The notes under the pieces are model-generated. The model saw only the letters and a program-made list of their open reading frames with translations, was not told the DNA's origin and ran no database searches. A program made the translations under genes and the position numbers. Shown in pieces: positions 4,190-58,370 of a stretch of 64,000 bases of DNA (position 1 is the stretch's first letter; each line of letters opens with the position of its first letter). The stretch is from contig CAWUHX010000009.1 of assembly GCA_963922205.1 (NCBI GenBank), forward strand, positions 1,984,001 to 2,048,000, given 5' to 3'. This DNA comes from Romanomermis culicivorax (taxonomy: Eukaryota; Nematoda; Enoplea; Mermithida; Mermithidae).

Positions 4190-5106
4190 GAAGAGTTGAG
4201 AAGTTTTTGCTAAAGACGTTCATATGTTTAGCATAGGCACTAAAGTCGGCCCCAATGCTAAATGTATTTGAACTGTGAAAAATGTCTATGTGCTCATTGG
4301 CATCTTCTGCATCATTATGTCCGCAGAAGTTAGCCTGAGCATTGATAACTCCACCCAGGTCTTACTGTAGCCGACAAGGTCCTTAAAAGGGCATGTTGTT
4401 CTAAACTTTTGCTCATTTTTTGGGTTTAGCTTCTCCCATCTTTTCAGTGCTCCACGCTGCTGTTTATTCTGCATATTTTTATCTCTGCCACGTACTGCCG
4501 CCAATTTTCATAGGTTTACCCCATCACCATTTACATTCCAATAAAAGTTGCCCCTCGGCTGTTTTCAACCAACGTTTCATACCTTGCATCAGATTACCCC
4601 CTCCATCATCCACTGCGGCCCTCAGGGACCCTTTGCTTCTTGGAAATCGTTTGTAGCTGGAATAGGTGAGTTTCATATGTTGAGGGTAATTGGGGACAAC
4701 CCGTTTTAAGTCAGTTATCCTCCCTAAGCTTTTCCCCAGCTAATAAGGGCTGTCTCCCTTCAGGATCAGCTCCAAAAGGGGATCCCATGGTTCACAATTG
4801 GGTCCCAGAGTTGGGTCATTTCACAGATGACCTTGTACTTCGTTGAAACTGAATAGGACCAGGGATTGCCACCCGTAACCTGACTGCGTTATTCTTATAC
4901 TACAGCAGTAACCCCAGAGCAGCACCACAGCACATATAGTTTATTCTATAGCTGGTACTGGCCGGGTTAGGTTCCCAAATAGAATTAGCCTTCGCCAGTA
5001 TTAAACCCATGGACCCGATGCTAGTGGCCCATCTCCATGACAGGGATATGGAGGCCATAGGTCATTTATGATGACATGGCAAGGCTAAGTTTTCTATTAA
5101 TGTGAC
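4190..5106 (+). repeat. Diverged LTR relic, related to LTRs of the 16-kb element, opposite orientation
   Basis: The stretch from about 4190 matches the reverse complement of the LTR at 6019-7450 in ordered blocks. These include GACGTTCATATG, AAATGTCTATGTGCTCAT, GGCATCTTCTGCAT, GCAGAAGTTAGC and TCCTTAAAAGG. The copy ends in ..AATGTGACA at 5106, like the GTGACA terminus of the intact LTRs. Similarity is patchy, so this is an older or sister-family copy. Its left boundary is unclear: no clean TGTCAC terminus was found near 3960-4190. Confidence 0.5.
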
Positions 5107-5605: not shown

Positions 5606-6018
5606 GAATGTGTCATACTTCAGTGTGCGGTACCACTTGGCACTGCATGGCGCCACATGGGGCCGGTTGTTCTTTTCATACGGAAAAACGGCCCCGGCCA
5701 GCGCAGCGCGGTGCTGGGCAGTACCACCTTTGAAGTATGAATAGGTTTTTATGATTTTTGCGGCGCCATGCAGCACTGCCATCAGGTTTCAACTGAACCG
5801 AAATTTTCGAACAAGTTATGTATTCTAAAGTTGCAGCATACTGTTGTTATAACATATTGTTGCATACTGTGACATCTCTACATGTAGTGGAATCATATTT
5901 TTCACTTGAGTGGGGAATTCTGACACTTGTCAAATTATTTTACCAAATTGATTACGTAATTTTCAAAGAAGATTTACCAAGAAGTTGATTGCTCAATTCC
6001 CAATGAAAACATTAATGT
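5606..6018. repeat. GC-rich hairpin repeat of the GTCATACTTC family, then unique AT-rich DNA
   Basis: The segment 5608-5780 opens with GTGTCATACTTC, contains GCGGTACCAC and GGCGCCA-type palindromes, and has GAAGTATGA near its right side. Related GTCATACTTC ends with GCGC-rich palindromes occur at 23616-23745, 28650-28690 and 38057-38140. They look like termini of one dispersed inverted-repeat family. The remainder up to the LTR of the big element holds nothing recognisable. Confidence 0.4.
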
Positions 6019-7450
6019 TGTCACATTTGACGGCATGTCACGTGTATGACATGTGGTTTTGGGAGAGCTGGGGAGGTTTGGGTATCTCATCAGGTAATAC
6101 CGTGTTTTAGACGTCACATTGATGGTGAACCATATCAGATTGATCCTATTACAGTGAGTAATAGGCTGTGACTCCTGATGGATACTGGCATTTTCCCCAG
6201 GCTTCCCAAGTTGCCGTTAGGGCCTAACCTGGCAAATGGTGGCTATAGAGAGGTCTATAGTTGGTTCTCTTGTGTTGTCCTTGGGGTCTTGCTGTAGGGT
6301 AATGGACAACGCTGCCAGGCTAGGTGCGACAATCTCCGAGTCCTACTCAGTGAGAGTGGGGATGGGGTCACCCGTAAAATGACCTAATTGGTGGGACCCG
6401 ATTATGAACCAGACAGCCCCTTTTTGCCCGAACCTGAGAGGTGGAGGCCCTACTTATTTGTGGAAAACTTGGGAAACCGATTTAGGAAGGGTTTCCCAAC
6501 AAATACCCCACAAACAACAATAATCCCCTGAGAAGACTCACCTAGTCCTGTTTCTCAAGCGATTCGACGAACCGGGCGGCAAGTCCCTGGATACTTTTGG
6601 TCTTCTGGCACTGGGGCGGGGATGCGATCCACAAACGTCCTAGCGGCGAGCAGCGGCGAGCGGCGACGAGCGGGAGGCGATTCTCCAACGTTTTCTTCAC
6701 GAACCGGGGCTGTCGGACACCTGGCACTGATGGGCAGCGGGTACTGTAGGTGGTAAGCGGCGGAGGCAGTGAACAAGGGTAAATTTATGCAAATTTATTG
6801 GTAATAAGGCGGTGGATGCACAGGTAGATAATAAAATATGCAAATTTAGACGAAGGGGGCGGACGCGGAGTTACAACCATACGATAGCATGGTGAACCCA
6901 AGAATGAGCGAAAAACTAAAGAAACATGTCCTTTTAAGGACATGTTTGGCTACAGCTGCAGCTTGGGCGGAGTTTCTCAGCGCTCAAGCTAACTTCTGCA
7001 GCTAGACGCGATGCAGAAGATGCCTATGAGCACATAGACATTTTTTCGTTCACATGCGTTTAGCACTGAGGCCGACTGCAGTGCCTATGCTAAGCATATG
7101 AACGTCTTTAGCTAAACTTCTTAGCTAGTCGTTTTTGCTTAACAAAAACGACGCTAATTTTAATGATAAGAGGTGCATGGAGCGCACCAAAAATAGCCAT
7201 GTGCTCGTGGAGCACGACTGGCGGAAGTTTTTAGCTAAAGGGCCTACTTTAGCCTGCGTTTGTAAAGAAATAAAAATACAACAAAACGAAACATCGAAAT
7301 GCATGAAAAATATAAAAACAAACACAAAATGCATGTGCAAAAATGAAATAAACAAAGGCATGAATAAGTAATAAACGAAACATGAGAAAATAACAAAATG
7401 TCGGCATGATCGGAATCACGTGACGTTATAGAATTGAGCAGCACGTGACA
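6019..7450 (-). repeat. 3' LTR of the 16.2-kb element
   Basis: This 1432-bp repeat is colinear with the 5' LTR apart from scattered substitutions and a 10-bp expansion in the GCGGCGAGC-rich part near 6650. It has the same TG...CA ends. The left flank ATGT matches the right flank of the other LTR. Confidence 0.93.
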
Positions 7451-8047
7451 CGGCGGTCCTTCGAAAAAGGGCGTCCTCGTCCTTGCAGTGGTTAGTAGTG
7501 AGGTTTGTGCGGCGTGTCCGTGGTCGTAGGTCGTTCCAATGTGCGACAGCGAGTGGTGGAATAGGTCCGTTGGGTTGTTGGCGGATAGAGCCTTCTTTGA
7601 TCGTAATTCGTTCGGTGGTATGGTACCCGGAAATTGTTGATGCGTGAAGTTGCAGACATTGAATATCCTATGCAAAAGTCTAGAACACAGAAAAGAAAAA
7701 TTTTCAGGGCAAGATGTAGGCTATCGCAGAGGATGCGCCCAGCGAGGTACAGATTATCGGGTTATCGCAGAGGATGCACCCACTGAGGTACAGATTGTCG
7801 GGTTATCGCAGAGGATGCACCCAGTGAGGTACAGATTGTCGGGTTATCGCAGAGGATGCACCCAGTGAAATGTAGGCTATCGGGTGAGGATGCGCCTAAG
7901 ATGTGATGCTTTGGTTGCTGAACGTTCTCTTCTATCCACTAAAATCCAGCATGAGTAAGAGTGGATACTTCCTGAGGGGCACGGCGGTCCTTCGAAAAAG
8001 GACGTCCTCGTCCGTAAGCGGGGACAATGAACAGAATGCATCTTGAA
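7451..8047 (-). other. 3' untranslated region of the 16.2-kb element with 41-bp tandem repeats and a duplicated 32-bp motif
   Basis: Plus-strand positions about 7720-7868 hold about four tandem copies of a 41-bp unit containing GTTATCGCAGAGGATGCACC. A motif, CGGCGGTCCTTCGAAAAAGG..GTCCTCGTCC, occurs twice, at 7451 directly against the LTR and at 7982. No classical purine-rich polypurine tract lies against the LTR. The sense strand there reads GGACGAGGACGCCC then TTTTTCGAAGGACCGCCG, so the primer for plus-strand synthesis is uncertain. Confidence 0.6.
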
Positions 8048-11000
8048 TTAAGGGTCAGGGACCTCTGCATCAAGATGTGGGTCAATCAAATTCGGTGTAA
8101 AGTCCCGGCTTATTGAAGGATACAATAAGGGTGCTGAATCTGTTGCCTGTGAAGTGGGAGGTGTATCCTCTGCTTCACTCGGTGGTTCAGGGGACACGTA
8201 AAGTCGAAGCTGGTTGACATGTACAGTGTCTTCCTGATCCGTCTCGAGACGAAGTGTGACATTGGGATATGCCACACTCGTTACAAGGTAGGGCCCATCG
8301 TAGATGGGCAGCAATTTAGGAGTGAGTCCACGTTTGCTGGAGGTGCGCAGTTTGAGCACCTGATCCCCTACTTTGTACAAGACATCATGTGCCTTCCGGT
8401 CGTAAGACCGTGCATAGGCCTCCTGTGCTTTCTCAATCCGACTCTGGATTAAGGTTAACGCATTCGTGAAATGACATTTGACCTCCATATCATATGAGGA
8501 AACATTAATGATATGGGCCGGAGGGTTGAATGAGAGCGCGGCATCAACAGGGAGCATGGGTGTGCGACCGTACATGAGTTCAAAGGGCGAGTGCCCTGTT
8601 GACTCATTCATGCTGATATTGACGGCAAACACAATGTATGGTAGGTGTTCATCCCAATCGGTATGTCCTTGATGAACATACATACGTAGCCGTGTGGCTA
8701 GCGTCTGATTAGCTCTTTCCACCTCGCTGTTGGTCATCGGATGATAGGCGGTAGAGTGGATCTTCTTCGTTGCGCAGATCGCAGTGATCTCCGTCATCAG
8801 TTTTGATGTGTTATCAGTGCCACGATCTGACTGAAGAATCTGTGGTGCCCCGTGCCGGCAGACAATTTGCGTTACAAACAGCCGGGCTATGGTGTGCGCA
8901 GTGATGTCCGGAGTAGCAAAAGCCTCGACCCATTTCGTAAAGTAGTGGATGAAGACTATGATGAAACGGTTGCCAGCTTCCCTAGTGGTCATTGGTCCCA
9001 TACAGTCGACACCTACCCGATGAAACGGTCCCATGATGGTGATGGGTTTCAGGGTCGCAGTGGTTTTCTGTCGAGCGGGCTTATTCCGTTGGCAAAGATC
9101 ACACCATTGACAGAAGGACTTGACATCCCGACTGAGGGAAGGCCAGTGGTATCTGCGAGCAATGAGCCGCGCAGTACGTTTAGCACCAAAGTGTCCAGCT
9201 AAGATGTCATCATGATGAGCCCGGATAATGGTAGTAACCATGGATCTGGGTATGACAATCTTATTGGACTCGCCTGTCCATTTCTGAAGAACGTTATCCA
9301 ACAGATGGTAGCCTCGCACATCATTCTGGTCGCCCAGAGGCTTAAGAGAGCGAATGATGTCGGCTAACTCCGGATCCTCCAGCTGAGCAGCGAAAAGGTC
9401 CGGGTGCTGCGCACCAACCGATATCTCGGCATAAGACTCTGATCGTACCGGGCGCTCCGCGCCAACAGTGATCGGTGCTGAATTACTTGAACGCGCCAGG
9501 TACTGCACACCATCAGTCAAGGTTCTTGATCTCGCCAGGTGCTGCGCACCATCGGTGATCATCATAACATGCCCCTCAGGTCTGTAGAAAGGAGTATCAT
9601 CAATACTCTGACCGGTGAGGGAGTTAGGATCCGGTAGGCCTGATAATGCATCAGCATTACCATTAGACTGACCTTTTCGCGGCCGAATTGTCAGTTTGAA
9701 TTCGGCGAGCGCGAGTCCCCACCGAGCGATCCGAGCAGAGGGGTTAGGCTTCTCCAACACTGCTTTGACCGCGGTATGGTCAGTCTGAACGACCACCTCG
9801 TGCTGGAAGAGGTATGGTCGAAAGTGCTTGACGAAATGGACAACAGCGAGAGTTTCCAGTTCTGTAATGGAATAGTTTTTCTCGGCCGCTGTTAACCCTC
9901 GGCTGGCGTACGCGACAGGATAGTCGTATCCAAGTTGGTCTAACTGGCTTAGAACCGCTCCTATCCCCGAAATACTTGCATCAGTTTGAAGGATAAAGGA
10001 TTTCGAAAAGTCCGGATGGCGCAGGATAGGAGGGTTGGTCAGCAGGCGGCGGAGTTCATCGAACGCCTCCTGCTGAGGTTTTGACCACTGGAAAGTAGTT
10101 TCCTTCCCTAAGAGCTTGGTGAGTGGCTCGCTGAGCCGGGCACAACCAGGGATGAAACGCCTGTAATAAGACAGGAGGCCTAGGAAGGACTTGATGTCTT
10201 TGGCGTTTTGTGGAATGGGTAGGTTTTGGACCGCGGCCAGCTTGGCTTGGTCAGGTTCTAGGCCGCTCTGTGAGATGCGATAGCCTAGGTACTCTACCTC
10301 TGAGTGCGAGAATTTGCACTTGCTCAGTCTCAGCTTCATTCCACCCCGGCGAAGACGGGCGAACACATCTGCCAGGCGCTCAAGCATTTGGGTGTGAGAG
10401 TTCCCGAACACCAAAATGTCGTCGAGATAGGTCAGAACCGTGCACCATTGGATTCCAGTAAGGAGGAGGTCCATAAGGCGTTGAAATGTCCCTGGCGCGT
10501 TGCATAGACTGAAAGGCAAATAGTTGAATTCGTAAAGTCCAATAGGCGTATTAAATGCCGTCTTTTCCTTATCCGCCTCGGCAATCGGGATTGACCAATA
10601 AGCATTAGCCTGGTCAAGGGTAGTGAAATACTTCATACCCTTGAGTGTGTCAAGGATGTCATCTATCCGTGGGAGTGGGTAGACATCCTTTTTCGTGACC
10701 TCCTTAAGACCACGAAAGTCAACACACATACGGTGAGAACCGTTTTTCTTGCGCACCAGGACAGTATTAGTAGCCCACGGTGACATGCTCGGCCGAATAA
10801 TACCTTTCTCCTGGAGCGCCTTGACCTCCTGCATGATGAGATCCTTTTCCTTAGGTGAGGACCGGTAAGGGAAACAGCGGACTGGGCGGGCATCGCCCGT
10901 GCTGATTTCGTGCTGGACGAGATCAGTGGAACCTGTGTCCTTTTCATCAAGAGCATAATGGTCGGTGTATGCAACCAGCAGATGGAGTAAGGCTGCCCGG

Positions 11001-11752
11001 TCCCGAGGGGAGATGTCCGGTGAGATTACAGCATTGGCCTCGACCCACTGACGATCGAGGACGGTGTCTGAGTCAACCGGTGATTCCTGTGAGGGCTCAC
11101 TATGCATTTGCACATGACTGATGGTCATGTGTGGGTAGAGAACCACGGAATGAGTATTTGGGTTAACTACTTGAAGTGGTATGTGACCGTTGGTCACGCT
11201 ACTCACGCTTCCAGCAAAATATACGTGTCTTTGAGATCCGGTGAGGTGCTTCGGAAAGAAGGCCACCTCAGGTACGTTCGTATAGATTGGCGGAACAGGT
11301 ACAGTGAATCGTGTCAGGGAGCGAGGCTCCAGAATTACCAAGTCCTTCAGGGGCAAGGCGCCGCGGGCAGAAGGTGGGCTGTGGATGAGACCGTCACAGG
11401 GGATTCTACTTTCTTTGAACTGGAGGAAGGATTTCTCCCAGTTCAAGCTGACACAATTGAACCGGCCAAGGAAGTTTGTTCCGAGAACTAGTTCAGCTGA
11501 ACAGTTCTCCTGTATTTGGACCTGAATCCGTTCAGAGACATCAGCCACTGTAACCGTGATGTAGGCTGCTCCTAGCAGTGGGATCGGGGACCCGTTGGCT
11601 GCGATAGGACGAGCCCTGGTTGGTGAAAGTGACAAGTTGGGCAGCTGGGCCGCTAACTTGTGGTCCAGGAGTGAGAAAACAGCTCCTGTGTCGACCAGTG
11701 CCTTTGCTTCTACCCAGTTGTTGAGGAGAACTTTGATAGGGGTGTCCGAATA
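8048..11752 (-). CDS. pol: Pol: second retropepsin (PR2), reverse transcriptase, RNase H, integrase
   Basis: The frame opens after a TGA at 11755-11753, -1 relative to the env-PR1 frame, with no early ATG. PR2 has ALVDTGAVFSLLD (DTG at 11684-11692) and 'ELVLGTNFLGRF'. RT shows 'FTTLDQANAYW' and the YLDDIL catalytic box (about 10412-10437). RNase H carries 'LQTDASISGIGAVLSQ', 'ELETLAVV' and 'QTDHTAVKAVL'. Integrase has the HHCC finger, then the D,D,E triad in GVDCMGP, QSDRGTD and SEVERANQTL. The end carries a GPY/F module, 'YDGPYLVTSV', and no chromodomain. The 1235 codons are uninterrupted and all catalytic residues are present. Expression could be by -1 frameshifting or by splicing; I see no canonical XXXYYYZ heptamer in the overlap. 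Confidence 0.95.
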   Translation of the reverse strand, partial: YSDTPIKVLLNNWVEAKALVDTGAVFSLLDHKLAAQLPNLSLSPTRARPIAANGSPIPLLGAAYITVTVADVSERIQVQIQENCSAELVLGTNFLGRFNCVSLNWEKSFLQFKESRIPCDGLIHSPPSARGALPLKDLVILEPRSLTRFTVPVPPIYTNVPEVAFFPKHLTGSQRHVYFAGSVSSVTNGHIPLQVVNPNTHSVVLYPHMTISHVQMHSEPSQESPVDSDTVLDRQWVEANAVISPDISPRDRAALLHLLVAYTDHYALDEKDTGSTDLVQHEISTGDARPVRCFPYRSSPKEKDLIMQEVKALQEKGIIRPSMSPWATNTVLVRKKNGSHRMCVDFRGLKEVTKKDVYPLPRIDDILDTLKGMKYFTTLDQANAYWSIPIAEADKEKTAFNTPIGLYEFNYLPFSLCNAPGTFQRLMDLLLTGIQWCTVLTYLDDILVFGNSHTQMLERLADVFARLRRGGMKLRLSKCKFSHSEVEYLGYRISQSGLEPDQAKLAAVQNLPIPQNAKDIKSFLGLLSYYRRFIPGCARLSEPLTKLLGKETTFQWSKPQQEAFDELRRLLTNPPILRHPDFSKSFILQTDASISGIGAVLSQLDQLGYDYPVAYASRGLTAAEKNYSITELETLAVVHFVKHFRPYLFQHEVVVQTDHTAVKAVLEKPNPSARIARWGLALAEFKLTIRPRKGQSNGNADALSGLPDPNSLTGQSIDDTPFYRPEGHVMMITDGAQHLARSRTLTDGVQYLARSSNSAPITVGAERPVRSESYAEISVGAQHPDLFAAQLEDPELADIIRSLKPLGDQNDVRGYHLLDNVLQKWTGESNKIVIPRSMVTTIIRAHHDDILAGHFGAKRTARLIARRYHWPSLSRDVKSFCQWCDLCQRNKPARQKTTATLKPITIMGPFHRVGVDCMGPMTTREAGNRFIIVFIHYFTKWVEAFATPDITAHTIARLFVTQIVCRHGAPQILQSDRGTDNTSKLMTEITAICATKKIHSTAYHPMTNSEVERANQTLATRLRMYVHQGHTDWDEHLPYIVFAVNISMNESTGHSPFELMYGRTPMLPVDAALSFNPPAHIINVSSYDMEVKCHFTNALTLIQSRIEKAQEAYARSYDRKAHDVLYKVGDQVLKLRTSSKRGLTPKLLPIYDGPYLVTSVAYPNVTLRLETDQEDTVHVNQLRLYVSPEPPSEAEDTPPTSQATDSAPLLYPSISRDFTPNLIDPHLDAEVPDP

Positions 11753-14616
11753 TCATTTGGGTAAAAAGCAGAGACCACATGACTGGAATCAGGTGTGGTG
11801 GCACCACTAGTGTGTTTAGTCTTACCGGACGGCTTTGGAATCTGCAGTCCCTTACGACGTAGTAGACCTACTAGAGCGTATCCGACGGAGGGTTCCGGGT
11901 CGTTCAGAAGGGTGGACTCATCCTGTACCGTGAGTACGTGGTCTGAGTGGTCCCTTGGGCTCTGAGTAGCTCCTAGTGATTCAATCTCGGTGTCCGATAG
12001 CAGTGGCGCGTTTGGCACGGGTGATGCCGGAGCATCTGAATCACTTGGCTCACGGTATCGGCCTTTCTCTAGCGTGACTGGAGAGTTTCCAGGCGGAGGT
12101 CGAGGGCAACCTGACCTGTGCAAGGTCGACAAATGATGACTTGCCCGTCTAGAAGAGGCCCGGGATCCCCTGGTTGACCCACGTGATGAGGCAACTGAGG
12201 AGGCCCGTGAGTGTGGCCGAGAGATGGACGAAGCCCTGGACCGCGATCGTGATCCCGACCTGTGTGAGCTTCTTGAGAGAGCACGGGTGTTCTCCCACCA
12301 GGGGTCGATCTGGTCAATCTCCGGTGTGGTCAGCAGGAGGGGTAATTCTACCGCGTCCAGCCAACAAACATTACGTTGGTAGTCAAACATAATGTTCTTG
12401 AACTGTTCTAAGAAGTCCAGTCCGAGTATGAGGTCAACAGGTGCCCAGAAGGGAGACGTAGTCTTGCACACATGGAGATGTATATCGATCCGTGTGTTCG
12501 GCTGGCGGTTTCCGGGCAACATGATTTCATATGGTCCCGAAAGGATGGTATGAACGGCTTTACCATTGATGCTCATCAATGGGTTAAAGTCGTGATGTTG
12601 CTGGAACCCCATGACCGCCTTCGGACTTTCTTTAGCCAAGGCCTTATGAAGACGTTGGCTAATGATAGTGCGGGGGCAACCCGTGTCAAGGAAAGCAGGA
12701 GTTTCCTTGGTATCCAGCAGCACGACGAAACACGGTGTGATTTGGTCAAGCTGGGAGGGCACATCGTTTTGCACGTAGTGAAAACCGATCCAGCGTTGGA
12801 CTTTGCGGTAAAGACCCAACGGGGAGAAACAGCTAACAAACCTGACCTGTTTGCTCCGCAGACGGTAGCTGAGATAATAAGATACACCAAGATAGGCAAG
12901 GTATCCGACACCGATCAGCACTGTCAGGGTAATTAGGATGTTAAAGATCAACTGGACCGGCCCGCTCAGGACAGCATGCAAGCCCTGGGTGAGGGTGTGT
13001 TGTTGACCCGTAATAACATGGTTTGCTGCCAAACCGACACCTTCCAGAGAGGCCTTGATGTCGGTTCCTACCCCTGCAAAGGCCTGGTAAATGGCGTCTG
13101 GTTGCAGGGATAGACCAGCGGTAAAGTTTACCAGCCGGTTGAGTACCGCTTCAATTTGCTCAGTCTTGTAAACGTAGTGTTTAAAGAAGGCAAAGTTTGA
13201 AGGGGTCATTGCCAACTGGTCATGGAAGAGCGCCGGTGCCTCAAAGTGAGTGATGTTGAAACGCTGCTTCCAGAAAAGTTCCAGTGGGATGTGGCTCACA
13301 TAGACCGCGCCAGACTCAGTAAACCAGCCCGAGCGATTTCGGAAAATCCCTGTAAAGTGGTGATGACACGGCACAATTGGGCTAGATTTAATGAGATCTG
13401 GACCACCGGGGGTGGCGAAGTAGATGGTACCGCCGACCTGTACAGGTAAGTACTTGTAGCAAACGTTTCCCACCCGGTACGAGTGGTAAACGTAGGTGGC
13501 GTTGACCTTCTGACACGGCCATATTGTCAGTGCGTCGCCTGTGAATTCCGCCGTCAGGTCATTCCTCTGGAGGAATGCCCGGGCACCCAAGGTAGGGTCG
13601 AAGCGAAGCAACTGCCAAGTCAGATCAAGATAGCGTTGAGCGTGAGAGCAGAGCTCAAGCCACGTGAACCGGAAACCGTTAATTTCCGACTCCTTGATCT
13701 GCTGAGCCAGATAGTTCAGTTTGGCATTGACAGGATCGGGAGGGGTGTCCTTTGCCATTCTGAACAAGTTTTGGGTCAAATTGTATCTCCCATGGATGCG
13801 AAGGAGAAGACCCTGATCCGTCCGGACTGTGGTGGAACGTAGTTCTGGGCACAGTTGGAAGACGTGGGAGTTTCCCGGGATCTTGAGGGCAACCTGTAGA
13901 TCATCGATGATGACGTGGTTCCCTGACATGGACGCAGTGTAATTTCCCTTGGGGTGATAATGACACCGCGCCGTGAAGTTTTGTGCAGGCCAGACAATGA
14001 CCCCGTCTAGACTAGTGCACTGGCCTGCAGTGGGACTGCATCCACCTACATCGCCTAGGGTGCTTAGGGCCGTAGTGCCGTCCCACAAAGCGACTTGTCC
14101 CTCCTCGATGAAGAGGTTAGTCACTGTCTTGCAGACGTCGCTGCAGCACCATTCGTACATCACTTCCAATGTTTGGTTTGTGCTATAAAAGCCAGGGCGA
14201 ATGCCCACAAGTTTTTGTGAACCAAACATCTTAGTGCGATGTGCTAGCGTGCATGCCGCAGGCGCTAAGTGCTGAGTGGTAATGACGTCTGCAGTGATGC
14301 CCCTAGAGCCGAAGAAACCAGTGTTGGTGCAGACTTTGCGGGAGCGCAATGTGCATTTCCACGCTGTGGTTGTAATCGGGTCTGAACTAGGGACATACAC
14401 CGTAACATTCATGCGCCGCGGGCTCCATGAAGATTGCGGTGGTTTACACTCTACGCGCTGGGGTAACTCAAGTGGATGTCCGCTTCTTGAGAGACCGCAA
14501 AATTGATACTGAGCGGCCGGTGCTGACAAACTCACCCCTAGAAACAGTGATGTTACCAAGGTCAATTTTATTATCAAAAACAACTTTACAAATGTGATTT
14601 GTAAGTGTTCACTCAT
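11710..14616 (-). CDS. env: Env-like membrane glycoprotein fused to a first retropepsin (PR1) and an SR-rich tail
   Basis: The ATG at 14616 is followed by a hydrophobic signal segment (residues 10-31). An ectodomain of about 540 residues follows, with many paired cysteines and at least nine NX(S/T) sequons. Near its end come a Gly-rich amphipathic stretch and a transmembrane segment, '[20 protein letters not shown]' (plus-strand 12885-12965), with a basic stop-transfer. The frame continues without a stop into an aspartic protease: [10 protein letters not shown] active site at 12679-12687 and '[11 protein letters not shown]' about 80 residues later. An Arg/Ser-rich repeat tail follows at 12140-12280. 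The upstream sequence CTGACACTGCCCCTCAG is a plausible splice acceptor. The frame overlaps pol by about 43 nt. The fusion-protein class (gB-like, phlebovirus-like or other) cannot be decided from sequence by eye. Confidence 0.8.
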
Positions 14617-14644
14617 TTTCACAAATCTGGCCTGAGGGGCAGTG

Positions 14645-15358
14645 TCAGATTTCTTCTTCGTCGCTGTCAGACGAGATGGGTTCCTGGCCGGGGAAATCGA
14701 GGACCAATCCACCACACGAGTGGATTTCCCGGAGGATACCGACTTTTGGCGACCATGGGGTGACTGCCGTTGGGAACGGAGATTCCTCAACGATGCTGAC
14801 ATCTTCGTTAACCGGACGTAAGGTCTCGTCGACGGCCATGTGTTCAACGACAGGTGACTTGGTCGCAGCGGTCGGATATGTCTCTTGGGCTGGCGCCGGC
14901 GATTTGGCTTGGGCTGTTGCCGACGATGTGTTTTGGGCTGTTGCCGGCGGTGTAGGATCATTTGCGGGTTCCTTGGCCGGGGGCGAGGAAGCAGTAATGT
15001 CCATTTTTGTTGGCGATGTCGCGGCAACAGGTGGCGCTGCTGTCGGTGATGTAGCGGCGACAGCAGGCAGGGGGATCCGACTGGCCTGTTCGACTGCTCG
15101 GCGGACGGCATCGACCGAAGGCGAGGATGGCTCCCCATCCAATAAGAACTTCTCGACGGGCGAGATTGTGATAGTCCCATTGGCAATGAACTCGAGTGCC
15201 CGTCGGGCGACGTCGAGTCGTAAGAGTCGCATTGAAACAGGTGCCGCAAGCACCACGTCGGCGGCCGTGAGCGCTTCGACATGCAATGGCTCGTTGAGCA
15301 GAGTCCACGGCAAATGCGGGTATTTCTTGGCCAGGTCAACTGACCAGATGGCCAACAT
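14645..15358 (-). CDS. ORF X: unidentified 237-residue protein between gag and env
   Basis: The ATG at 15358 opens a frame shifted by -1 relative to gag and env; a TAA closes the frame just upstream at 15367-15365. Residues 1-105 look like a folded domain (beginning '[18 protein letters not shown]', with '[18 protein letters not shown]' and a helical '[15 protein letters not shown]'). Residues 106-185 are an Ala/Pro/Thr-rich linker, and the last 50 residues are acidic, ending DSDEEEI. The overlapping gag/env frame here is Ser/Arg/Pro/Gln-rich and looks like an out-of-phase read, so I take ORF X as the coding one. Its stop lies 29 nt upstream of the env ATG. I do not recognise the family. It could be a retroviral accessory or matrix-like protein. 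Confidence 0.55.
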
Positions 15359-15467
15359 CGCGTCTTAGACGGGCGATGGCGCTGTGAACAAGAAAGCGAT
15401 AGAGTCGTGGACTGAGATAGATTTCTGGTTCCTACTCTAGGATCACCTGAAGAAGAAGGTAGTATAC

Positions 15468-16107
15468 CTGACAAATTCATGGGCTCGACCTGGTCGAGGA
15501 CTTCCATAGCCGAATCCGTGGGGATCGAAGGCGGTGGTCCTGGAGGGACGATGCGGGCCGGTGGCGCCAAAGACGTCGTATTTGCGGCTGGAGCTGGCTC
15601 GGCAGTCGTGGTTTTGGGGATGCAATACGATGCGAGGATGTTAGCGTGGCCAACAAACTGCGGTGTTGTCGAGGGGTCCAGAGTGACTGGCATTGCATAC
15701 CTCGGTGGTGGTGGTGGCAGCGGTATGTCCGATACATTTATCGGTACGGGTACCTGGGCTGCTTGGACCACTGAAAATCCAATACTGATTACGCAGACAG
15801 GATAACACTGTTGTGAAGGATCTGTCAGGTGTTCAGCAAGTGCCTCATCATCCAGATCAAGAGGATCTGGATGAGGAGGGCCATCGGTAGCCCCAACTGC
15901 GTTGTTGCGACGTATGGGCTGCTGATATTGGTTCCCCATCCCGTTAGGAGGGTGATAACCATTTCTCTGATGATACACATTTGTCCCCTGGGAGGAATAA
16001 CCAGTATTTTGGTAGTCATTCTCACCCGTGTTTGCCCGATTGCGCTGTGGACAGGCAGTTGATCGGTGCACTCGCACTTGACGACAATGAGGGCATGGCC
16101 TGTCACA
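15468..16107 (-). CDS. gag: Gag carboxy-terminal extension (zinc knuckles and Pro-rich tail), in frame after the TGA
   Basis: The gag frame continues directly after TGA 16110-16108 with CDRPCPHC, completing the first knuckle. It then gives a second, atypical CX2CX5HX4C knuckle, CPHCRQVRVHRSTAC. An Asn/Gln/Gly-rich stretch and a Pro-rich tail ('PLPPPPPRYAMP' and similar) follow. There is no ATG early in this segment, so translation must come from gag by readthrough or from an unmutated copy. The frame passes a good donor-like GTATAC at 15467 and an acceptor-like TTGTTCACAG ending at 15382. Removing this 86-nt segment gives a stop codon 6 nt before the ATG of ORF X. Past about 15467 frame 0 becomes Ser/Arg/Pro-rich and looks like the shadow of ORF X. 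Confidence 0.6.
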
Positions 16108-17187
16108 TCAGTCCGTGGGGTGGGCACGTGTACGGCAAAAATAACAGCGACCACCGTTAGCGGTGTTGTTACTGGGAGCGGCACCGGTGGGACGCTGGGC
16201 CCGGCAGTCGGCGTCGCTATGTGTACACAGTCCGTGGAAGGAGCACGTTTGAAGGTGTGCTCCCGACGAGCATCGCCCGGCGGACTGATTTTGTGTCGAC
16301 GGCTGTGGAGGCGGCGTCTGTTGGATTGGCGCTGGTGCACATTGCTGGGCCGTGAGCTTCGCTACGTGGGCCGTGAGCCTGGCCATTTCCTGTTTCAAGC
16401 GGCGAACCTCATCGGCGGAGGATGACGACGTTGGAGCGTTGCTCTGACGACCGTTTGCGCTTCTGTTAGGCATATCGGGATTATATCCGGCGTGTTTAGG
16501 TTCTGAAGAGAAAACGGCGTTAGATGGAGCAGTGTACCGGATCTCGTCCCGAAAGATTTGGGATTCTGCGTAACAGGCTGCCTTGAGTGTCTCTTCAAGA
16601 GTCGTAAACTCCCTAAACTTGATACTATCTCGGAGGACCGGCTTCAATCCTCGCAAAAAGATAAGTTTGATGATAGAATCTCGGACATCCGTCGCGAGAT
16701 CTGGATACGCTACCCTGGATAGTCTCTTGAGGTGCTCAAGGTAGACTATCGCGGACTCTGTCAGCTTCTGCAGTCGATCTTGGATCAGCTGCTGATGCAG
16801 ATCAGAGTCGCGCCCTACCGGAAAATCTCTCCGTAGAAAAGCCGTAAACTCTTCGTAGCGGGTAGGTATTGGAGTGCTACTGCTAAAGTCCCGGTAGGAG
16901 GCAAGAGCAGGACCCGTGAGGCATGACTCTAGAAAGGCGATTTTATACGCATGATCCGTTTGGCTTACACCCTGGAGTGTAAAGAAACAAGTAAGATGCG
17001 ACATAAAATCAGTGATAGACTCACCAAAAGCACCAGAGAAGGTGGGAGGGGCCATAAAGCTGGACACGGAAGGGTGCCTCCGACCATTCATGGCCTCTAA
17101 CTTTTGGTTGAGGGGTCCAAGAGCATTCTCAAATGCTGCTTGGACCTTGTTCTCGATCTGTGAAGGGAGATCAGCTTCGGACTTCAT
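16108..17187 (-). CDS. gag: Gag polyprotein, amino-terminal part up to an in-frame TGA
   Basis: This 359-codon ORF starts at ATG 17187, the first in-frame ATG after the leader. Residues 40-230 read as a Retrotrans_gag-type capsid region, including 'FMAPPTFSGAF' and 'DFMSHLTCFFTLQG' followed by the alpha-helical 'YLEHLKRLSRVAYPD' stretch. Residues 255-285 are a short coiled coil, 'DEVRRLKQEMARLTAHVAKL'. A Cys/His cluster, CSFHGLCTHSDADC, follows. The frame ends in CYFCRTRAHPTD-TGA-C. The TGA lies exactly between the His and the last Cys of a CX2CX4HX4C zinc knuckle, and the same frame stays open afterwards. Gag would package element RNA. The stop is either a nonsense mutation or a readthrough codon. 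Confidence 0.88.
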   Translation of the reverse strand: MKSEADLPSQIENKVQAAFENALGPLNQKLEAMNGRRHPSVSSFMAPPTFSGAFGESITDFMSHLTCFFTLQGVSQTDHAYKIAFLESCLTGPALASYRDFSSSTPIPTRYEEFTAFLRRDFPVGRDSDLHQQLIQDRLQKLTESAIVYLEHLKRLSRVAYPDLATDVRDSIIKLIFLRGLKPVLRDSIKFREFTTLEETLKAACYAESQIFRDEIRYTAPSNAVFSSEPKHAGYNPDMPNRSANGRQSNAPTSSSSADEVRRLKQEMARLTAHVAKLTAQQCAPAPIQQTPPPQPSTQNQSAGRCSSGAHLQTCSFHGLCTHSDADCRAQRPTGAAPSNNTANGGRCYFCRTRAHPTD

Positions 17188-19809
17188 GTCCGAGGGTTCG
17201 TTTTCGCGTAAGGTGGTTAGAACAGACGTCCTTGCCCGTGAAGCAATTAAGTCAAATTGAATAGAGAGCGGCTCACTGGTCTGTACAGGCTGGGTACTGA
17301 GATGGCAGGAACGACGGGGTGTCTCTATTGTGTAAAGTGAAAGTGAGTACTACTTTTGAATTCGCGGCGAAAGAGCGCGTGAATTCGGAAAACGCGTGCG
17401 CGACGGCGTTTGTGACGTAAACTTGATTTAGCTTAAGACTAGCGACCACGAAAAGGGAGCTAGAATGGAATAGGATTATAAGATGCAAGATCAGAGTACA
17501 TCAGGGTGACACAGAAGGGAATTTATCTGGTCGCCCGTGATGGACAGAGGCATGGCCTGAGATATGGGGGAATCGATCCAGTTGGGGCCTGGACCCGGCA
17601 ATTAGAATAGCCGAAAGGACAGAAGATCAGATATAAGAAGAGAGAAAAGGCGGTTTTTCCTGCCGAGAAATAAGATGACGGATGAACCCGCTCAGGAGGG
17701 ATTTTTCCTGGAGGTTCGACCGTTGTACTAGTTTACAAACCTTGGGGCGAGGCGGACTCGTAGCCGGCAAGATCCTACTCACCAGGAGTAGCGCATAAAG
17801 TGGCATAAAGTGAAAAGGATGTGGACAACTGAAAGTGAACTTAAAAGGGAGCAATAAATAGGGACAAAACTAATTTACAAACCCAGTTACGCAAAGGGGG
17901 GCGCGCAGTTACGCAACGGGCCTCACTCGCCAGGAGCGATTGCGATCTCTGTACAGTGTGATGGACTATACAGAGGTTCCGTGTTGGACAACATTTGCAA
18001 GTAACTTAGAGCCGTGTCCGAAACGGGAGCCCGCATTCCGAACAGAACGGACACTCTCCAGGAGTATTATATACAGCTGGTGGCCGGGTTTGCCGATCAC
18101 TGAGATGAAGTGAGGTTCGCAGGTCACACAGTGAAAGAGAGAAGGAGCACGGGTACCAAGGGTGCTATTCTGACACACTCAGTCAGTTAAAATGAATTAC
18201 TCTGGATGTTTTGAGGGCGCACCCGAAAACATCTAAGGGATCACGGGTACAAGGTGTCCCTGGGTGAATATGAGTGTAAAATAACTGAGGCGGACGCAGT
18301 TATGTATCGAGGTGTACTCAATACCTTCGCTGAGGCGGACTCAACGGTGCCTTTTACTTTACATGACTAACAGGGGTGGACCGCGGAGGCGGACTCTGGG
18401 TCAGTGGCGACTCTAGCGCGGGCATCGTTAAGCCAGTTAACAAAGGCATTCAAGTGAATAAAAAATGACAGGGGGTCCTATACACTCTAGGCCCAACCGG
18501 AGGCTGTGCCGCGGTCCCTCGGGAACCACTACGGCGGGGACACTAAAGAAGATCTATGTATGACAGCTCGATGAGATGAAAGAGAATGAGTGAATTTAGA
18601 TAAGAAATTTACAAGAAGATTGCTGAACCCTTGCAGACGTCAGACACAGGCAGTACCGACTGCAAATGCCCACCGTCTACATGAGTCAAACAACCAACCC
18701 AGCTGAGGCCGAGTGTAACTCGTTCAAACCTGCAGTTAAAGCTTGAAGCAGTCACGTGCTGATCAACAGTGCCGCTACCCGGGCGGACAACCTGATCAGT
18801 ACGCAGACTAGAGAGCATCTCAAGTGGTGTATATATGTGGACTGATGTTTCCCAGGCATCAGCCCCCAGACACACACAAACCCTTGGACAAGAGAGGTAG
18901 GTGATAGGACCATGCGCCAGCGACCACCTACAACTCAAGTGGAATACTCATAGGACCGACAGTAACCTGGTGCTGACGTCATAAGGTAGGGGTATGAACC
19001 AACACGTGACCTTGGTGCTGACTGCAGGTGCCTGGGATAAGAGTATCCAAGTATCATGTCGCAGTTGCAGACGCCAGGGGTGAGTGCCTAAGGCCAGCAA
19101 AACCCCTGCAGTAGCACGTAATGTTACTGTTGCGGAGACGTCAGAAATAGGATCATGTAACCTCAATTCCTGCTGCGAGAACATGATACATTGTCATTGC
19201 TGACGTCAGCAATAGGGCCCTGAAGCCAACTATCGGTATACAGCAACACGTGATGGTGCCGTTGCTGACGTCAAAAGGTGGAACCGAGGGTCTGATACCT
19301 TAAGTCAATGACATGAGATGCAGTTGTTGCAGACGTCAGATGTGGCACCCGTAAGACCTGCACATCTTCGAATGGTGACACGGTGCGTCACCATTGCTGA
19401 CGTCACACATGGGGTGCAGAGAACCAGTCAAACCTGTTACAACAAGGTTAGCTTCAGCTGTTGCAGACGTCAGAAGTCATTACTGCCGGAGTGTTAACTT
19501 AAACAACAACACGTAATGTCTGTTGCTGACGTCAGGAGTAGAACCCGGAGGGCTACCCACCCCTTAAAGCAACAGCAAGTGAAGCGGCTGTTGCAGACGT
19601 CAGTGGTTGCATCCGTGAGGCTGAACCACACAACAACAACAACCCGTAACGTTGTCGTTGCTGACGTCAACGAACATGACCCATAAAGTCTATGGTCTAG
19701 ATGCAACAACCCGAGGATAGAAGAGAAGAGACCTTACAGTAAGTAGAAATGAAGAAGAGAGAAACTTACGTAAGGGTGTCATACTGTAGCGGTGGCATCA
19801 GAAAAACAG

Positions 19810-19845
<36 letters not shown>

Positions 19846-20788
19846 TTGACAACGCTCAGATGACCGAGAAAAGAAAGGGGAGAAAAAAAACCAACAGAAC
19901 GGGAAATACGAGATTTGGACATACGCGTGTTAAGTGTGTAAACAGTAAATGGAAAATTTTGGGGCCGGAAAAGTGAGCAATTCCGACAGTTTCCGCCGAC
20001 ATACAAAAATACTGTACACAATTAACAGATCGCAGCCACGTATGACGTCCAGAATCATATATGGAGGGTGTACGGTATCATGGGGTCATGGACCGCCGAC
20101 AGTCGGGAGAGGCCGTCAACCCCTACAGCTGTGATACTAGTACCCGCGTATGGGTATACTGTAGTTACAGTACGGGAATGGGCACAGGCGTACTGTAATG
20201 GCACCCACCCGGAGGGCTACAGTATACCACCCAGGATTAGAGAAGGGGGTGAATAAGGGAAAAGAGACAGATAAGGTAGTTTACAACACAGATTAAGTAT
20301 GCAGAATGTACAGAATTAATCAGAGGAGAAATACAGAATACTCGATATATAACTCAACTCTGGGACAAATAACTCGACTCTGAGGATAAATAACTCGACT
20401 CAGGGGGAATTTATTACTCATAGGGGGTTATACACACGCATGAGATAATTATATACACAGGTAGATCACATTTAGATCACTCCTAAGGGCAAATCCCGTC
20501 TTACAGTAATTAAACTCGATGTTAAGGGATAAATTCCTGACCTACAGTAAAAACACGCGACTTGAGGGGAGGTTTCCAACCTACAGTAGCGGTAACCCGA
20601 AATAAGGGACATTCCCGACCCATTAGGCAGTAAACCCGAATGTGGGGGGGTCTCCGACTTATTGGATGGCTAGTACCCGATTTTAAGGGGGCTTGTCCGA
20701 CTTAAAATGGGAATTGACCCGACCTGGGGGTAGTTCCGACCCAAGGGTGAAGTTTTTGCACTTAAGGGCGAGTGCCAGACTTAAGGTC
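17188..20788 (-). other. 3.6-kb untranslated leader of the 16.2-kb element, built from several tandem-repeat blocks
   Basis: There is no long coding frame between the primer-binding site and the gag ATG. Reading plus-strand coordinates, the leader holds four blocks. The first is a set of repeats around GAGGCGGACTC (17750, 18335, 18385, with variants). The second is a GACGTC palindrome array (18636-19668). The third is a 31-nt T run (19814-19844, i.e. poly-A in the sense RNA) followed by unrelated sequence. The fourth comprises two short arrays, AAATAACTCGACTCTG at about 20345-20410 and CCCGA...AAGGGG...TCCGACTTA of about 50-bp period at 20500-20790. The length far exceeds typical Gypsy leaders. 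Confidence 0.7.
18636..19668. promoter_or_regulatory. Array of GACGTC (CRE/ATF-like TGACGTCA) palindromes in the retroelement leader
   Basis: GACGTC cores start at 18636, 18975, 19137, 19202, 19267, 19332, 19399, 19466, 19528, 19596 and 19663, with a degenerate GACGCC at 19070. The last nine are spaced 62-68 bp. From 19267 they alternate between GCTGACGTCA, a perfect CRE octamer, and GCAGACGTCAG. The intervening sequence is only loosely conserved (AACACGTGA-like blocks), so the palindrome is the constrained part. By analogy, the Drosophila gypsy leader carries a clustered Su(Hw) site insulator in the same place. A bZIP-bound enhancer or boundary is an inference. Confidence 0.75.
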
Positions 20789-20806
20789 GATTTTCCAGCC
20801 TCGCCA
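20789..20806 (-). promoter_or_regulatory. Primer-binding site
   Basis: Directly after the 5' LTR on the minus strand the sequence starts TGGCGAGGCTGGAAAATC. The leading TGG pairs with a tRNA 3' CCA end, as expected for reverse-transcription priming. The complement would give a tRNA 3' end ...CCTCGCCA with a G discriminator. I could not assign the tRNA; serine is possible because eukaryotic tRNA-Ser has G73. Confidence 0.65.
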
Positions 20807-22228
20807 TGTCACATTTGATGGCATGTCACGTGTATGACATGTGGTTTTGGGAGAGCTGGGGAGGTTTGGGTATCTCATCAGGTAATACCGTGTTTTAGAC
20901 GTCACATTGATGGTGAACCATATCAGATTGATCCTATTACAGTGAGTAATAGGCTGTGACTCCTGATGGATACTGGCATTTTCCCCAGGCTTCCCAAGTT
21001 GCCGTTGGGGCCTAACCTGGCAAATGGTGGCTATAGAGAGGTCTATAGTTGGTTCCCTTGTGTTGTCCTTGGGGTCTTGCTGTAGGGTAATGGACAACGC
21101 TGCCAGGCTAGGTGCGACAATCTCCGAGTCCTACTCAGTGAGAGTGGGGATGGGGTCACCCGTAAAATGACCTAATTGGTGGGACCCGATTATGAACCAG
21201 ACAGCCCCTTTTTGCCCGAACCTGAGAGGTGGAGGCCCTACTTATTTGTGGAAAACTTGGGAAACCGATTTAGGAAGGGTTTCCCAACAAATACCCCACA
21301 AACAACAATAATCCCCTGAGAAGACTCACCTAGTCCTGTTTCTCAAGCGATTCGACGAACCGGACGGCAAGTCCCTGGATACTTTCGGTCTTCTGGCACT
21401 GGGGCGGGGATGCGATCCACAAACGTCCTAGCGGCGAGCGGCGATGAGCGGGAGGCGATTCTCCAACGTTTTCTTCACGAACCGGAGCGGTCGGACACCT
21501 GGCACTGATGGGCAGCGGGTACTGTAGGCGGTAAGCGGCGGACACAGTGAACAAGGGTAAATTTATGCAAATTTATTGGTAATAAGGCGGGGGACGCACA
21601 GGTAGATAATAAAATATGCAAATTTAGACGAAGGCGGCGGACGCGGAGTTACAACCGGACGAAAGCTTGGTGAACCCAAGAATGAGCGAAAAACTAAAGA
21701 AACATGTCCTTTTAAGGACATGTTTGGCTACAGCTGCAGCTTGGGCGGAGTTTCTTGGCGCTCAAGCTAACTTCTGCAGCTAGACGCGATGCAGAAGATG
21801 CCTATGAGCACATAGACATTTTTTCGTTCACATGCATTTAGCACTGAGGCCGACTGCAGTGCCTATGCTAAGCATATGAATGTCTTTAGCTAAACTTCTT
21901 AGCTAGTCGTTTTTGCGTAACAAAAACGATGCTAATTTTGATGATAAGAGGTGCATGGAGCGCACCAAAAATAGCCATGTGCTCGTGGAGCACGACTGGC
22001 GGAAGTTTTTAGCTAAAGGGCCTACTGTAGCCCGCGTTTGTAAAGAAATAAAAATACAACAAAACGAAACATCGAAATGCATGAAAAATATAAAAACGAA
22101 CACAAAATGCATGTGTAAAAATGAAATAAACAAAGGCATGAATAAGTAATAAAAGAAACATGAGAAAATAACAAAATGTCGGCATGATCAGAATCACGTG
22201 ACGTTGGAGAATTGAGCGGCTCGTGACA
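20807..22228 (-). repeat. 5' LTR of the 16.2-kb element
   Basis: This 1422-bp direct repeat of 6019-7450 begins TGTCAC and ends GTGACA on either strand. On the sense (minus) strand it carries a consensus splice donor, ACTAG|GTGAGT, with the exon ending at 21330. That would sit in the transcribed part of the LTR and could feed spliced env or pol messages. A 74-codon reading frame (21554-21330) precedes the donor, but in the other LTR it is shifted by the 10-bp indel, so I do not call it a gene. Confidence 0.93.
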
Positions 22229-22567
22229 ATGTGTAAAAATTATGGATATGCAAAGTAGGTGTAAACATGCACCTACAGCAAGTGTACTCGCACATTTCGA
22301 TTGTGTCTTTACTCCCCCAACGTCCCTTTTCGGCAAATATCCCGATTGAAAGTTCATATTCCCTGTATAGGTCCCGATTCCCCGAATAATGAATAAATTT
22401 CCTATTTCCCCGAAAAATGCATTAGCCCCTATTCCCTGAACGTCCGAATGTCCCGAATACTAGGGAAAGGATGGATTCACTTTGAATCTGGGTCCTAAAC
22501 AGCAGGTCCGACTGGACCCAGATCAGATCTGGATCCTGTATATAGCACATATCTGAATTAAAAATTA
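22229..22567. other. No gene recognised
   Basis: AT-rich sequence right of the big element. Nothing coding or clearly repetitive was seen apart from short TCCCCGAA-type words at 22370-22450. Confidence 0.4.
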
Positions 22568-55144: not shown

Positions 55145-55172
55145 GGTAAAAGACCCCCTTGATAGTAGTTTT

Positions 55173-58110: not shown

Positions 58111-58370
58111 ATCTCGGGGGAGCGCGTTAGCCTGTTACAAATATGTAACCTGCGCTTCCTATTACCGTCATTAACTTGTTTACTGTAGCACATATTTTCG
58201 CTGCGATATTGTATTTGTCGTTTTGAAGTAGCCGTGGATTGAGTTTTCGAAACTTTTCTTCGTTTCCTTATTTCATTTTAATTGTTTGTTCTCGCGTTTT
58301 AACCTTTTTTTTCTTTTCTTGTGTTATATTTCGCCTGACAGGTAATAAATCTTCTTCATTCATTCATCAT

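Follow-up and report, generated by a model that had tools for sequence, protein, structure and literature searches.

Retroviruses and env-bearing retrotransposons usually have the gene order gag-pol-env, with Env made separately; in the insect errantiviruses env is located after pol. In flavivirus-type polyproteins a single chain carries a capsid, an internal signal, a glycoprotein and then a protease and a polymerase that are cytosolic. The subject of this report is a retrovirus-like long terminal repeat (LTR) element of the mermithid nematode Romanomermis culicivorax, in which env lies between gag and pol. It occupies positions 6019-22228, on the minus strand, of a stretch of 64,000 nucleotides (nt) of contig CAWUHX010000009.1 (positions 1,984,001 to 2,048,000). 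The whole stretch is called the window, and the features of the element are numbered in it and lie on its minus strand unless stated otherwise.

Several described systems share some of these traits. Env-bearing Ty3 elements are described as widespread in animals (PMC13172572, PMC12859917), and the first of these papers mentions type III fusion glycoproteins for mosquito gypsy and cites Chary and Hayashi 2025 on metazoan elements (PMC13172572). For Atlas virus and the nematode belpaoviruses a single open reading frame (ORF) of 2828 amino acids (aa), Gag-Pol-Env, is reported (PMC9094657). Anakin comprises Pao elements with a chuvirus glycoprotein (PMC7642597), and the Env of the lokiretroviruses, or lokiorterviruses, is similar to the fusion glycoproteins of Mononegavirales (PMC9040795).

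The window element is read, with a modest degree of confidence, as a damaged copy of an endogenous retrovirus of Ty3/gypsy type that has been active recently and is present in high copy number, which belongs to an old gag-env-pol lineage and would make a Gag-Env-Pol polyprotein with an internal signal peptide.

Gene order and the reading frame

The gene order gag-env-pol is secure. The gag gene (16108..17349, first ATG at 17187) encodes a Ty3-type capsid (Ty3_capsid, E 4e-9, 36.6 bits against a Pfam cut-off of 29.1) and the start of the zinc-knuckle region, where a nonsense codon breaks the first CCHC knuckle and closes the frame. Beyond this stop the same frame is open for 1465 codons, through the gag tail with a second knuckle-like motif and a spacer (14617..16107), the glycoprotein, and a retropepsin-like domain; the longest open run in 50 base shuffles was 191 codons. 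Open frames of the length found in the element are far beyond chance. The pol frame (8048..11752) follows at a -1 offset from env and encodes a second retropepsin (11462-11734), reverse transcriptase (RT) with the motif YLDD (10274-10756), RNase H (9698-10087), the H2C2 domain (9077-9253), the integrase core (8738-8971) and, near 8296, the GPY motif.

Both breaks in the frame are peculiar to this copy. The genome (359 Mb in 595 contigs) was searched with a 539-residue env query, and 80 of 4119 first-look candidates were scored. There is no stop within the query match in 78 of the 80. An uninterrupted frame of 3090 codons or more surrounds env in 47 of them, with the order Gag - spacer - Env - protease 1 - protease 2 - RT - RNase H - integrase; 22 lie in frames of 2000-3089 codons and 11 in shorter ones. 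A piece of 4617 nt, containing the end of gag, ORF X (see below), env, the protease and the start of pol, was compared in 29 other copies. All 29 align over the piece, and 22 are open over its entire length. None of the 29 has the -1 step before pol, and the position of the gag nonsense codon, covered in 26 copies, is a sense codon in every one of them. Since the gag stop and the frame step are absent from the compared copies, the family plan is one frame and both breaks are private to the window copy. The window element is a damaged copy, and its closed gag frame and -1 step are private damage. The original prediction, made from the window alone, had placed env between gag and pol, and the other copies bear this out. 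Its proposal that pol is reached by -1 frameshifting from the env frame is rejected as the normal route, since gag, env, the proteases and pol otherwise share a frame.

The features of gag and pol are those of Metaviridae. The Ty3-type capsid is combined with a CCHC nucleocapsid, and pol has the order protease (PR), RT, RNase H (RH), integrase (IN). Judged by solved-structure matches, the RT is nearest to Ty3: the best matches of the RT-RNase H region were Ty3 Gag-Pol (3.5e-122) and Ty3 RT of yeast (1.3e-87), with retroviral RTs far lower. The RT, being Ty3-like with YLDD, is not of the BEL/Pao type of Belpaoviridae. A single RNase H stretch was found in the Pfam scan, in which no search aimed at a tether was made. 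The integrase core falls slightly below its Pfam cut-off (rve, 27.8 bits against 32.6), and H2C2 is well above its own. The C-terminus of the integrase carries DGPYLVTS, a form of the GPY/F motif, which is described as a hallmark (PMC12440569). A second protease had been claimed, and two domains of retropepsin type are present: domain 1 (12379..12740, limits approximate; LDTGC ... LILGLDFL), in frame behind Env, has the DTG motif and a weak profile match below the cut-off (17.2 bits against 28.2), and domain 2 is above the cut-off with 34.4 bits.

The Env glycoprotein (12868..14616, 3' limit approximate) begins with the ATG at 14616 and contains a signal-peptide-like segment (14527-14583), a fusion-protein match (13312-13731) and a transmembrane segment (12895-12951). 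The match, obtained in a profile search of the 14616-12800 product that the original prediction had proposed, is to PF24664 (Monjiviricetes_fusion, the viral fusion glycoprotein of Monjiviricetes), with 50.2 bits against a cut-off of 27; this profile passed its cut-off in all 12 Env sequences scanned. The profiles Glycoprotein_B (herpesvirus gB) and BDV_G (bornavirus G) gave matches below the cut-off in several of them. These three profile families are presumably those of class III fusion proteins, so that Env is of class III type at the level of the family profile. The profile of the F protein (class I), the type found in errantiviruses, was not among the Pfam matches of the 12 sequences. A solved-structure sequence search with Env alone returned one match (E 0.33), which is not a viral fusion protein, and a search with a mixed Env alignment returned RT and integrase and no viral fusion protein among the best 60 of 143 matches. 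Env is not a third ORF downstream of integrase as in errantiviruses. In agreement with the earlier statement that nothing env-like follows integrase, the stretch from the end of pol (8048) to the 3' LTR holds the start of only one ORF of at least 100 aa, 7244-7675, which runs into the LTR and was not scanned for domains.

Relatives were found outside the family. In a protein search of 5.8 billion sequences, the glycoprotein query had a single hit, P0004, and led from there to P0005-P0008, and P0006 as query led to P0010 and P0011. Four of these are single ORFs, P0006 of 2535 aa, P0008 of 2490 aa, P0010 of 2707 aa and P0011 of 2847 aa, in which a gag capsid match and/or CCHC motif is followed by the glycoprotein, a transmembrane helix, an aspartic protease (Pfam matches below the cut-off), RT, RNase H and integrase. 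P0005 has the order Env-PR-RT-RH and lacks both Gag and integrase. In P0007 the ORF comprises Gag, recognised by eye and with a CCHC-like motif, and Env, and it closes after the transmembrane helix. The spacer between the knuckle and the signal segment measures 489 aa in the window element, 277 in P0006, 152 in P0007, 260 in P0008, 431 in P0010 and 445 in P0011, and the gag-env phase is kept despite these differences in length. A dUTPase (residues 622-742) lies between nucleocapsid and Env in P0010, and an RRM (residues 419-475) in P0011; in the window family the same place is taken by ORF X. Scans of a viral contig collection with the Env alignment and with RT yielded no relatives.

Other families were found in the same genome. 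In an RT search with P0006, 131 of 7678 candidates were scored and four families were sampled from them. Long frames were the reason for choosing three of these, and the frames of the fourth are shorter; families lacking env or carrying it elsewhere were not sought. Env was predicted 1.1-3.3 kb upstream of RT, and a glycoprotein was found there in all four. In the families on contigs C538, C34 and C180 an unbroken env piece is in phase with RT frames of 2703, 2665 and 2594 aa (the intervening 1.1 kb was not read); in the family on C293 env is in phase with RT and has a stop inside Env. The Env of these four families is 37-39% identical to that of the window, and the Envs of P0006, P0008, P0010 and P0011 are 30-38% identical to it. 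In many copies and several distant relatives, an Env of mononegavirus- or gB-like profile type thus lies between the nucleocapsid and the protease and shares a frame with the two. Two groups of RT matches in this genome are regularly spaced: three of the window family at G000:C17:1929729-1954570 lie about 12.18 kb apart, all in frames of 1883 codons, and are perhaps a tandem array, and three of another family at G000:C293:389745-405545 lie about 7.45 kb apart, with an Env glycoprotein upstream of one.

ORF X, expression and alternative explanations

ORF X (14645..15358) encodes 237 aa with an acidic C terminus in the -1 frame relative to the gag-env frame. It has no match in Pfam scans, and attempts to name it found no family. 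The extra ORF of the original prediction is genuine and represents a second gene in a frame of its own, because the variation among the copies has the coding pattern of the ORF X frame. The ratio of non-synonymous to synonymous polymorphism (pN/pS) was determined from 28 copies, with L009 as the reference and the broken L019 left out. Between 15358 and 14648 the main frame has a ratio of 1.6 and the frame of ORF X one of 0.30, and the codon-position pattern likewise follows ORF X; noise is rejected as an explanation. Where it overlaps ORF X the main-frame protein is unconserved. Elsewhere in the main frame, the 28 copies compared with the window copy gave 0.37 for the gag tail, 0.16 for env and 0.23 for the region of protease 1. 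The gag tail, X, env and the protease region are under purifying selection. Of 30 copies, 28 have an intact ORF X and 27 an open main frame across it. Main-frame stop changes across X number 3 against 7.8 expected (Poisson 0.048), and synonymous shuffles leave the main frame open across X in 4%, which is suggestive of a spacer that is held open even though its main-frame protein is unconserved.

ORF X needs a message of its own, and a spliced RNA is likely. The 651 AGs between 20806 and 8048 were ranked as splice acceptors with a scoring matrix set by hand. The best acceptor-like sequence (15447..15464, predicted exon start 15446; core motif in 27 of 30 copies) lies 88 nt above the ATG of ORF X, with no ATG in between, and the one of rank 7 (15382..15399, predicted exon start 15381), whose core motif is shared by 26 of the 30, is 23 nt upstream of that ATG. 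The ATG of Env is just below the stop of ORF X.

In the proposed mechanism, the genomic RNA would be translated into a Gag-Env-Pol polyprotein. The internal signal peptide of Env would engage the endoplasmic reticulum and the transmembrane helix would stop transfer, so that the N-terminal Gag and the C-terminal proteases, RT and integrase would be cytosolic and the Env ectodomain would be in the lumen. Retropepsin and host proteases would then release the parts, and Gag, Env and Pol would begin assembly at a common membrane patch. Retropepsin domain 1, despite its weak profile match, appears well placed to free the parts, lying directly behind the anchor in a region under purifying selection. 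Spliced RNA would probably yield ORF X and may add Env-Pol from the ATG of Env itself. The original prediction had pictured protease and RT on the cytoplasmic side of a membrane protein, which fits the single frame, although their attachment by a -1 frameshift does not. It had also raised a spliced RNA for pol; going by sequence signals only, splicing is likely for ORF X.

Several points weigh against the polyprotein. Its synthesis and membrane topology are deduced from the sequence, and a single frame would give equal amounts of Gag, Env and Pol unless tuned. The frames of 33 of the 80 scored env copies are shorter than 3090 codons. The statistics of the open spacer are marginal, and stops within X itself are also below expectation (1 against 3.1). 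The separate coding pattern of ORF X and the strong acceptor-like sites make it probable that the plan includes splicing, which could serve Env too. The ORF of P0007 closes after the transmembrane segment, so that its pol cannot be in that frame. Three of the four other families in the genome were picked for long frames, and these three belong to one Env clade. Finally, Env and RT percent identities are uncorrelated (r -0.19).

The alternative that survives best, possible although distinctly less probable than the polyprotein, is that unspliced RNA makes Gag, spliced RNA or RNAs make X and Env-PR-Pol, and the open gag-env phase is incidental. X would be reached through the acceptor at 15446 or 15381, and Env would start at 14616 by reinitiation after X or through a further acceptor. 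The two high-ranking sites above X would suit this scheme, as would the Env ATG and signal-like segment just below the X stop, and the Env of insect errantiviruses is reported to come from a spliced RNA (PMC12992720). The acceptor just above the Env ATG, however, scores poorly (rank 69), Env would still be fused to Pol in the one-frame copies, and the gag-env phase is kept in several relatives with differing spacers. Moreover, P0007 has no methionine between the knuckle and the Env signal segment, so that its Env could have an AUG of its own only via a spliced leader.

A different question is whether env was captured once, long ago, or whether several Ty3 lineages acquired it independently, each at the corresponding site; the latter is improbable. 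Six of 12 taxa have both Env and RT, and two of the three splits are common to both trees (window with P0005; P0006 with P0010), as expected under long joint inheritance; by our own count, 3 of the 105 trees possible for six taxa contain two given cherries. The Envs are also homologous. The remaining split, which differs (support 0.34 in Env), and the lack of correlation mentioned above speak for separate captures.

There is very little probability that the env block is spliced out as an intron from Gag-Pol messages, leaving a canonical Gag-PR-Pol and an Env made from unspliced RNA. Such an intron could end at 12868, where an acceptor-like site of rank 16 of 651 immediately follows the transmembrane segment. 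The one donor-like site noticed, at 15446, is out of phase with 12868 (by hand arithmetic and with no donor scan), and an intron does not need the in-phase openness seen in several relatives. A chimera, a misassembly or a chance insertion of env into one element, which has nothing in its favour beyond the novelty of the gene order and against which the original prediction had already argued, is refuted by the 29 copies that span the 4.6-kb piece, by the many contigs over which the 47 long-frame copies are spread, and by the same order in all four other sampled families, with env upstream of RT, and in several divergent relatives from public collections.

Ends and age of the element, and other features

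The element begins with TGTCAC and ends with GTGACA and, as in Metaviridae, has TG..CA LTRs and a short target duplication, in accord with the earlier description. The 5' LTR (20807..22228, TGTCAC...GTGACA) has 1422 bp; the 3' LTR (6019..7450) has the same termini. The 4-bp duplication ACAT, for which no strand is assigned, is present once in each flank (22229..22232 and 6015..6018). A putative primer binding site starting with TGG was read directly next to the 5' LTR (20788..20806). The 3.4-kb leader (17350..20806) contains no open frame longer than 112 codons from stop to stop, counting those wholly within it, and 41-bp tandem repeats occupy 7719..7885 between pol and the 3' LTR.

Alignment of the two LTRs (20807-22228 with 6019-7438) shows 33 differences in 1410 aligned positions, so that the window copy is not of very recent origin. 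A search of the genome for LTRs, in which 40 of 1774 first-look candidates were scored with the two LTRs of the element counted in, showed the other LTRs to be about 98% identical; among the 40 places there are, apart from its own pair, four further pairs spaced 14.7-15.0 kb. Over the 4.6-kb piece two copies on separate contigs are 99.85% identical, which makes recent movement probable, and the family has probably been mobile recently. Outside the element, a stretch of 69 nt at window 4205-4273 is 87% complementary to part of both LTRs and is probably an LTR fragment in the opposite orientation.

The window also contains, on the plus strand, a Tc5/pogo-type transposase (47443-48458; HTH_Tnp_Tc5, DDE_1) split across two overlapping frames and a degraded non-LTR retrotransposon (55146-58188) with endonuclease and RT pieces in several frames, and, on the minus strand, a tRNA-Ser(TGA) gene (31277-31348). 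Elsewhere in the genome, L069 (G000:C117:992573-993922) is a COX1-like reading frame in a contig of more than 990 kb, either a nuclear copy or an assembly join; judged by eye, it reads best with the invertebrate mitochondrial code (ATA = Met, AAA = Lys, AGR = Ser).

Comparison with known systems

No gag-env-pol element was found in the literature searched by title, abstract opening or the term 'gag-env-pol', Chary and Hayashi 2025 being known by citation only. This suggests, weakly, a retrovirus-like Ty3/gypsy lineage whose gene order has not been described. If a conserved one-frame gag-env-pol is true, env capture can follow another route, and one precursor threaded through the membrane may suffice to build a retrovirus-like particle. 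Peptides spanning the Gag-Env and Env-protease junctions are predicted from the reading frame.

Like the window element, the errantiviruses and other env-carrying metazoan Ty3/gypsy elements are invertebrate elements in which a fusion glycoprotein of viral type accompanies a Ty3/gypsy pol. In insect errantiviruses, however, env follows pol; their Env is reported to be spliced (PMC12992720). Here env is flanked by gag and pol within a single frame. Atlas virus shares with the window family one long ORF that includes an Env of RNA-virus type; its Env is last, of class II and combined with a BEL/Pao RT, in contrast to the internal Env, of class III type by profile, and the Ty3-like RT found here. 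Anakin, like the window element, has a glycoprotein from a negative-strand RNA virus group, but it belongs to BEL/Pao and not to Ty3, and the part of PMC7642597 available mentions no single Gag-Env-Pol frame for it. The lokiretroviruses share the Mononegavirales-type Env; they are described from vertebrate hosts and with a dual RNase H, while the nearest solved RT of the window element is that of Ty3.

The flavivirus-type polyproteins would work alike and are not kin, being non-reverse-transcribing and without integrase or LTRs. It is tentatively proposed, with slightly less assurance than the polyprotein itself, that a reverse-transcribing lineage has adopted the plan of a positive-strand RNA virus polyprotein, in which capsid, signal, fusion glycoprotein, anchor, and cytosolic protease and polymerase form one chain. 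In the window family, the Env anchor is immediately followed by a second protease, and the spacer is overprinted with an accessory gene, X. Every Gag made on such a plan would be tethered to Env and Pol at the membrane.

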